Assembly (NCBI GenBank): GCA_021777135.1
Contig: JAJYDX010000001.1
Coordinates: forward strand, 1 to 64,000
Origin: a bacterium
GTDB taxonomy: Bacteria > SZUA-79 > Acidulodesulfobacterales > Acidulodesulfobacteraceae
Reading direction: 5' to 3'
DNA: 64,000 nt
Shown here one piece after another: positions 6,815 to 8,317 of the stretch (the stretch's first letter is position 1; each line of letters begins with the position of its first letter). A program made the translations under genes and the position numbers. Under the pieces are notes generated by a model. It was not told the DNA's origin. It worked only from the letters and a program-made list of their open reading frames with translations, and did not search any database.

Positions 6815-7543
6815 TTAATAAATCGTATGAGAAATTGCTTTATTTTGTAAATCCGTGATATTTGCAACGGCAGTCTTAGAAAATTCGTAAAGTTTTTCGA
6901 GGATATCGAATCCTATAGGGGTTTTTTCGGCGCATCCCTGAATCTCGATGATTTTTTTAGAACCGGTTAATACGAAATTAAAATCAAGTTCGGCTATGGA
7001 GTCTTCAGAATAATCAAGGTCGAGAAGAATTTCTCCGTTTGCGATGCCTATACTTATTGCGGCGACTGAGTCGTAAAACGGCATTTTTTCTATTTTTTCA
7101 TCTCTAATGAGTTTTAAAAAAGCAAGATAGGCAGCTACATATGCCCCAGTTATTGACGCAGTCCTTGTTCCGCCGTCAGCGCTTATCACGTCGCAGTCTA
7201 TTAATAAGGTTATCCCTGGAAAATACGAAAAATTAATTACCGACCTTAGCGACCTTCCTATTAACCTCTGTATTTCCTGAGCCCTTCCGTTTACTTTTCC
7301 TTTTGAAGAGTCCCTGGGTATCCTGCTATGGGCAGACCTTGGAAGCATAGAATATTCTGCGGTAAGCCAACCTTCGTTCCTGTCTTTTAAAAATGGCGGC
7401 ACCTTATAATCAACGGATGCCGTGCATATTACCTTAGTATCACCGGATTCTATAAGACACGAACCTTCCGCATATTTCATATAACCGGAAACGATATTCA
7501 CAGGCCTAATTTCATTTGCGGCTCTATTATTATTCCTTTTCAA
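6815..7543 (-). CDS. rph: Ribonuclease PH
   Basis: 242-aa phosphorolytic 3'-5' exoribonuclease that trims tRNA 3' ends using phosphate. Motifs include the N-terminal PVNIVSGYMKYAEGSCLIESG, AEYSMLPRSAHSRIPRDSSKG, EIQRLIGRSLRSV and the catalytic-region CDVISADGGTRTASITGA. Length is normal for the family. It starts 11 bases after the stop of the selenocysteine-type TusA gene and is probably in one operon with it and nusB. In many proteobacteria rph neighbours rdgB; here rdgB is 6 kb away. Confidence 0.96.
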   Translation of the reverse strand: MKRNNNRAANEIRPVNIVSGYMKYAEGSCLIESGDTKVICTASVDYKVPPFLKDRNEGWLTAEYSMLPRSAHSRIPRDSSKGKVNGRAQEIQRLIGRSLRSVINFSYFPGITLLIDCDVISADGGTRTASITGAYVAAYLAFLKLIRDEKIEKMPFYDSVAAISIGIANGEILLDLDYSEDSIAELDFNFVLTGSKKIIEIQGCAEKTPIGFDILEKLYEFSKTAVANITDLQNKAISHTIY

Positions 7544-7554
7544 AGTTTATTCCA

Positions 7555-7809
7555 TTACCATTTCTTATTTTTAATAAAAAAAATATAAAGGTCTTTTAAG
7601 CTGACAGCGTTTAACAATTGCACGCTTATGAGGGAACACAGAGCCGGAATGTCTTTCAGTAAAGAATCTTTATCAGAAATTACCGTCAAAACATCATCCT
7701 GCTTTAAAGTTTTAAGTTTTTGGACGACCGCCCATACAGGAGGTCCTCAGCAAAGACCCCTTATATCAAGTACGATTCCGCCGTAATTCAAACCTGATTT
7801 AATCTCCAT
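7555..7809 (-). CDS. TusA/SirA-family sulfurtransferase-like selenoprotein (in-frame UGA)
   Basis: 84-residue TusA-family protein read through one in-frame TGA at 7749-7747. The family signature is D-x-R-G-L-x-C-P-x-P; here it reads LDIRGLC-U-GPPV, so UGA (codon 21) falls exactly on the catalytic Cys that carries the persulfide. Downstream the usual TusA pattern continues without a break: LKQDDVLTVISDKDSLLKDI, then a C-terminal strand ending LYIFFIKNKKW. The ATG at 7809 has AAAAGGG upstream. A SECIS-like hairpin follows the UGA. The gene lies in an operon between nusB and rph. TusA proteins pass sulfur or selenium; a Sec version would be a selenoprotein. The main alternative is a nonsense mutation. 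Confidence 0.82.
7720..7746 (-). promoter_or_regulatory. Bacterial SECIS-like hairpin after the UGA codon
   Basis: On the minus strand, bases 13-17 after the UGA (UGGGC) pair with bases 22-26 (GUCCA), with one G-U pair, exposing a GGUC loop at bases 18-21 (7729-7726). The E. coli fdhF SECIS shows GGUC at about bases 19-22 after its UGA, so both loop and distance fit SelB recognition. A competing hairpin (7745-7726, GUAU loop) uses overlapping bases. The structure was assigned by eye. Confidence 0.7.
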
Positions 7810-7855
7810 TTTTTTACCCTTTTCGGTTATTTTAAGTTTTTATAAGCCGATTAAC

Positions 7856-8317
7856 TTATTTAACCTTAACCGCCGCATCCAAGATTCCGTTAATAAAAGC
7901 CGGCGATTCGTCGTTTCCGAATTTTTTTGCTATTTCGATTGCTTCGTTAATAATCACGTTTTTAGGGGTTTCGGGAATAAACATAATCTCGTAAATCGAT
8001 AGCCGTAAAATATTTCTATCTATCCTAGACATCCGTTCAATAGTCCAGTTTTTAGCCAGCAACTTTATGAGACCATCGATTTTTTCCAAGTTAGATAAGG
8101 TCCCTCTTACGATATTCGTAAAGAAATCAAAGATCTCAGAAACATCCTTTTTCCTGTTCAAATCTTCTTTTGTCTTTATAAATCCGTCCCTCATAAGGCT
8201 TTCCGAAGCAAAATCATTATAAAAACGATTTATCTTATAATCTAAATTGCTTATATTTCCGTCTTCTTCGTATAAAAACTGTAAGGCAAGTTCTCTCGCT
8301 TTTCTTCTTTTCGTCAT
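7856..8317 (-). CDS. nusB: Transcription antitermination factor NusB
   Basis: 153-aa all-helical RNA-binding protein that, with S10, binds boxA RNA in rRNA antitermination. The start TKRRKARELALQFLYEEDGN, the core NWTIERMSRIDRNILRLSIYEI and the end VIINEAIEIAKKFGNDESPAFINGILDA are typical. It starts 17 bases after the stop of ribH, the classical ribH-nusB arrangement, and belongs to the riboflavin operon. Confidence 0.96.
   Translation of the reverse strand: MTKRRKARELALQFLYEEDGNISNLDYKINRFYNDFASESLMRDGFIKTKEDLNRKKDVSEIFDFFTNIVRGTLSNLEKIDGLIKLLAKNWTIERMSRIDRNILRLSIYEIMFIPETPKNVIINEAIEIAKKFGNDESPAFINGILDAAVKVK

Follow-up and report, generated by a model that had tools for sequence, protein, structure and literature searches.

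A predicted TusA-family selenoprotein gene between nusB and rph in acidophilic sulfur-cycling Acidulodesulfobacteraceae

TusA proteins are central sulfur relays that serve tRNA thiolation, the molybdenum cofactor, and Dsr sulfur oxidation. In the window analyzed here (positions 1 to 64,000 of contig JAJYDX010000001.1, assembly GCA_021777135.1), an initial annotation made from the sequence alone had proposed that the interval between rph and nusB reads as one TusA-type protein if an in-frame TGA at the position of the catalytic cysteine is decoded. This raises the question of whether the UGA codon specifies selenocysteine (Sec) and, if so, what selenium would do in a protein of this family.

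The reading frame and its protein family

Decoding of the TGA in the minus-strand translation of positions 7555 to 7809 gives the protein MEIKSGLNYGGIVLDIRGLC-U-GPPVWAVVQKLKTLKQDDVLTVISDKDSLLKDIPALCSLISVQLLNAVSLKDLYIFFIKNKKW*, here called Sec-TusA. The features of the locus are as follows.

6815..7543, minus strand: rph (RNase PH), downstream neighbor (Pfam RNase_PH, E 1.2e-27), 11-nt gap to the Sec-TusA gene
7555..7809, minus strand: predicted TusA-family selenoprotein gene, 84 aa, ATG at 7809, TAA at 7557-7555 (translation, Pfam TusA, 27 orthologs, AlphaFold)
7636..7638, minus strand: Cys58, the second Cys, invariant (27/27 orthologs), also present in E. coli TusA and most Cys homologs
7747..7749, minus strand: in-frame UGA, predicted Sec21, at the catalytic Cys position of the TusA motif (TGA in 27/27 orthologs)
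7750..7752, minus strand: Cys20, adjoining Sec (C-U pair), invariant (Cys in 27/27 orthologs)
7811..7820, minus strand: ribosome-binding-site region (AGGGTAAAAA) upstream of the ATG, read from the sequence
7856..8317, minus strand: nusB, upstream neighbor (Pfam NusB, E 6.5e-37), 46-nt gap to the Sec-TusA gene

As the initial annotation had described, the frame continues past the TGA for 63 residues to a TAA stop, the start codon is preceded by a ribosome site (AAGGG-like in the window, a clearer AGGAG in many relatives), and the gene escapes open reading frame (ORF) calling, in which only a stop is seen at the UGA. The distance between rph and nusB, which had been given as 253 bp, was found to be 312 bp (7544-7855), the gene itself measuring 255 bp. 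Upstream of nusB lies ribH.

With Cys put at the TGA site, the protein matched Pfam TusA (PF01206) with an E value of 4e-10 and 39.8 bits against a cut-off of 28.6, and scored 44.4 bits with the NCBIfam TusA equivalog NF001423, below the cut-off of 78. The AlphaFold model (pLDDT 87.5) had the order E-H-E-H-E-E, that is, the beta-alpha-beta-alpha-beta-beta TusA fold, and its best PDB match was TusA in the E. coli IscS-TusA complex, with a TM score of 0.78-0.85. In alignments, Sec21 fell on Cys19 of E. coli TusA and on the corresponding cysteine of the Cys homologs, which together with the Pfam match upheld the proposed TusA-family protein with UGA at the catalytic Cys. The C-P-x-P active-site motif reads U-G-P-P, with Sec for the catalytic Cys, Gly for the first Pro (a replacement already noted in the initial annotation), and the second Pro kept. 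E. coli TusA (PF01206/COG0425), the partner of IscS, shares with Sec-TusA the fold, the position within D-x-R/x-G-L-x-C, the second Cys in DIPxxC, and a length of ~80 residues; the protein studied here differs from it by having Sec rather than Cys, U-G-P-P rather than C-P-x-P, and an extra Cys directly before Sec.

In a profile search of 252 genomes, the matches outside the Sec orthogroup had no internal stop, and those whose site was read carried Cys at the Sec position, mostly within C-P-x-P. The further TusA loci listed in the 30 genomes of the window's family were likewise all free of internal stops. The nearest relatives in the tree (support 99/97) were small GLCCSxPI proteins from the same genomes. 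These CC-type paralogs have the adjacent pair at the same two positions and have also lost the Pro after the catalytic Cys, whereas they carry Cys instead of Sec and lie in another neighborhood, beside a TetR-type regulator gene (L066:4287-5123, L063, L067, L068). The L066:4287-4541 copy carries insertions both around the motif and at the DKxSM loop. No SECIS remnant was seen in the CC-type paralogs, which had no GGUC hairpin after the site. From the tree, Sec probably replaced Cys, and this replacement probably came after the adjacent Cys-Cys/Cys-Sec pair had arisen and the first Pro had been lost.

Conservation of the UGA codon

A protein query against 61 genomes returned 27 strong matches, all of them within the window's own family (30 genomes, six genera). 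All 27 orthologs, from 27 of the 30 family genomes, contained exactly one in-frame stop, a TGA at the same aligned codon, and none had Cys, Trp, or Arg at this site. The random stops, frameshifts, or Trp/Arg replacements that the initial annotation had named as signs against a selenoprotein were thus not found among these relatives. Cys20, Sec21, Gly22, Pro24, and Cys58 were invariant in the alignment. A degenerate DNA motif for L-C-U-G-[PT]-P-V was present in 27 of the 30 family genomes compared with 1 of 356 others; statements on the distribution of Sec-TusA outside the family refer to these sampled genomes. The lone match outside the family (G186) was due to chance, as the frame is closed and the product is not a TusA protein.

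The flanking ORFs, with same-strand upstream ORFs of nusB-like size, showed the order nusB - tusA - rph across the family, and an rph-sized ORF followed Sec-TusA in nearly all family loci. Three family genomes (G010, G011, and G025) lacked a match. The absence from G011 and G025 is uninformative because neither assembly has a nusB match. In G010 (contig C131, L059), nusB runs almost directly into rph with no Sec-TusA gene between them, which indicates that the gene is dispensable. This assembly, which is 84% complete, has selC but no full selB match, and loss of Sec may be in progress there.

Predicted selenocysteine decoding and the hairpin after the UGA

Insertion of Sec would require SelA, SelB, SelC, and SelD, as well as a SECIS hairpin within the coding region, directly downstream of the UGA, to guide them. 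All four genes, whose presence had been suggested as a check, were found in the same genome: selA with 550 bits, selB with 303 bits (above the cut-off), selC with 69.5 bits against a gathering threshold of 47, and selD with 360 bits. The selD gene (L062:8887-9939; contig C70, about 36.9-37.9 kb) is itself of the Sec type: its H-G-U-G-C-K motif contains an in-frame UGA and precedes a hairpin, so that ORF callers would truncate it at the N-terminus.

A candidate hairpin was located downstream of the UGA.

7719..7736, minus strand: probable bacterial SECIS hairpin core, stem 7736-7730 with 7725-7719, apical loop GGUC at 7729-7726

Within the genus, pS dropped from about 0.4-0.8 to 0.00, 0.05, and 0.17 in three 3-codon windows from +4 to +12 and then recovered; the low synonymous change spans ~30 nt past the TGA, with GCG-GTC-GTC nearly fixed. 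Most members of the genus carry the hairpin UAUGGGC-GGUC-GUCCAUA; in genus g2 it reads UUCUGGC-GGUC-GUCGGAA, and genus g6 has UUCUGGC-GGUC-GCCAGAA. Pairing was kept in 96% of cells, with 24 two-sided changes compared with 9.9 +/- 3.5 in shuffles, and the covariation of 0.356 stood against at most 0.11 in slid control versions. RNAalifold recovered the GGUC hairpin unaided.

The published bSECIS model has G in the first two loop positions, a spacing of 16-37 nt, a stem of 4-16 bp, and an energy of at most -7.5 kcal/mol (PMC13188914). The GGUC loop, the 7-bp stem (a 5-bp core in the window), the spacing of 17 nt between UGA and loop, and the covariation agree with this model, and the conserved hairpin reached the energy threshold in 12 of 26 sequences. 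In the window copy the stem is weakened by an A-A mismatch, its 5-bp core having -5.6 kcal/mol, and taken alone the sequence folds more stably into a competing structure (-9.6 kcal/mol); for these reasons we regard the hairpin in this copy as a probable bacterial SECIS. This competing structure, a hairpin GGACC...GGUC with the loop UGUA, was rejected, as it showed no covariation, its share of paired cells (81%) was lower than the shuffle mean, and its loop lies nearer to the UGA than the 16-nt minimum of the published model (PMC13188914). An Rfam scan of the window matched no family and hence gave no SECIS call.

Three other readings of the UGA were weighed against decoding as Sec. If it were a true stop, the locus would hold a 20-residue peptide and the remains of a pseudogene, as might be suggested by ORF callers seeing a stop only and by the gene loss in G010. 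A decaying gene is, however, difficult to reconcile with a single TGA common to 27 genomes from six genera and no other stop or frameshift: downstream of the UGA these genomes had no stop in the gene frame, which is open in every copy, compared with 177 and 168 stops in the other two frames, and dN/dS within the genus was 0.08 before the UGA and about 0.15 after it. This open frame under purifying selection excludes a pseudogene, a reading to which we assign a negligible probability. Equally negligible is an organism-wide reading of UGA as an ordinary amino acid (a Trp or Gly code), in whose favor nothing speaks beyond the open frame itself. UGA ends 5 of the 54 window ORFs that reach 120 aa or more, the frame after it soon closing, and three orthologs of the Sec-TusA gene terminate in TGA themselves; moreover, the other TusA loci listed have no internal stops, and the homologs have Cys at the site, not Trp or Gly. 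A regulated, mostly terminating stop, with selenium-dependent read-through controlling the downstream rph and with translation, more than the chemistry of the peptide, being what counts as a selenium sensor, would fit the conserved position of the gene 11 nt before rph and the fact that ribosomes terminating at the UGA would stop far short of rph. We consider it very improbable, although somewhat less so than the two preceding readings, since the strong conservation over all 84 residues, including Cys20 and Cys58, calls for a working protein. On the basis of these sequence comparisons, positions 7555 to 7809 almost certainly encode a selenoprotein.

Possible function and significance

It is very likely that the selenoprotein acts as a TusA-type carrier in a broad sense, a claim that includes neither the redox pair nor the acceptor. 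Sec-TusA would be a paralogous, small cytoplasmic carrier of sulfur, possibly of selenium. The genome has ten TusA-family matches, nine besides Sec-TusA. From the neighboring ORFs, one paralog lies between iscU and iscS, one with MoaD/MoeB-type genes, two with DsrE-type and sulfide:quinone-reductase-like genes, and three near HdrA/MvhD-type genes. Three TusA genes of nearly identical sequence (L099, L100, and L101; contigs C59, C69, and C58) adjoin HdrA/MvhD-type genes and large regulator-like ORFs, possibly a repeated cluster in the genome. At L061:1682-2694 (contig C36), next to a DsrE-type and a sulfide:quinone-reductase-like gene, two TusA-like genes stand in tandem; one has the usual CPGP motif and the other has VSCCMPP, making it a second TusA with adjacent cysteines in the group.

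In the proposed mechanism, Sec would take sulfane sulfur from a donor, for example a cysteine desulfurase or rhodanese; the Cys-Sec pair would close to a selenylsulfide, and the sulfur would be released as sulfide or handed on. Closure of the pair is conceivable because the invariant Cys directly precedes Sec and the rigid Pro after it has become Gly. Such a relay might be faster or more oxidation resistant than one with Cys-TusA. We hold the role of a sulfur or persulfide relay tentatively, at slightly below an even chance, and consider it possible but rather doubtful that Cys-Sec works as a redox pair. By position and similarity, the genome contains a dsr locus (dsrAB-D-L-C-M-K-EFH-sat-apr, with dsrC and dsrE also identified by profile). 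Ca. Acidulodesulfobacterales are known to have dsrEFH alongside reductive dsrAB (PMC6776010). No tusA is included in the dsr locus of the genome, and DsrEFH is therefore among the candidate acceptors. The flanking nusB and rph do not point to a specific sulfur pathway, and no other conserved neighbor does. The link to tRNA thiolation that the initial annotation had considered is not specifically supported, given that other TusA paralogs exist, one of them between iscU and iscS.

The main rival for function is a selenoprotein that, like YedF, would carry selenium instead of sulfur and supply SelD with selenide. YedF, which has a TusA domain, is linked to selD by gene neighborhood in other bacteria (PMC2432076, PMC5322559), and Sec-TusA matches the YedF TusA domain weakly. 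YedF/FdhU shares with Sec-TusA the TusA-type domain and an association with selenium; it is, however, a Cys protein with a second, DsrE domain and a link to selD, whereas Sec-TusA is a single-domain protein without the DsrE-like domain, scores 12 bits with the YedF model TIGR03527 against a cut-off of 110, and is not near selA/selD (contig C70 rather than C54). In addition, no mnmH, which would provide a link to selenouridine, was found in the genome. We therefore judge the role of a selenium carrier to be unlikely, and the TusA-type carrier in the broad sense stays the preferred reading.

The 119 families of prokaryotic selenoproteins compiled in a 2026 review include rhodanese-like, DsrE-like, and YeeE/YedE proteins, but neither TusA nor SirA, PF01206, or COG0425 (PMC13188914). 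The rhodanese-like forms 1-5 and the DsrE-like and YeeE/YedE selenoproteins also carry Sec in the active site of a sulfurtransferase or sulfur-handling protein, but they belong to other protein families. TusA is not named as a selenoprotein in the searched passages of earlier surveys and of deep-Sep, no NCBIfam model covers Sec-TusA, and the full text of open-licence papers yielded nothing that paired selenocysteine or selenoprotein with the TusA family or TusA-like proteins. Sec in place of the key Cys in a TusA-type protein is thus uncatalogued for the TusA family. As the gene is missed by standard ORF calling, annotation of selenoproteins could use Sec-TusA as an additional seed family.

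Mammalian thioredoxin reductase, with its Cys-Sec pair, offers an analogy. Sec-TusA could be the first Sec-containing TusA family in which Cys20-Sec21 with Gly22 forms a vicinal selenylsulfide redox center of this kind, which we consider possible but rather doubtful; if true, it would turn a passive carrier into a persulfide/polysulfide reductase or relay in sulfur metabolism at low pH. The presence of a Cys-Cys sister paralog in some of the same genomes provides a natural Sec/Cys comparison by which to judge the contribution of selenium to the transfer of sulfane sulfur. Fixed across a family of acidophilic sulfur-cycling (acid-mine) bacteria, Sec-TusA would put selenium directly into sulfur trafficking.
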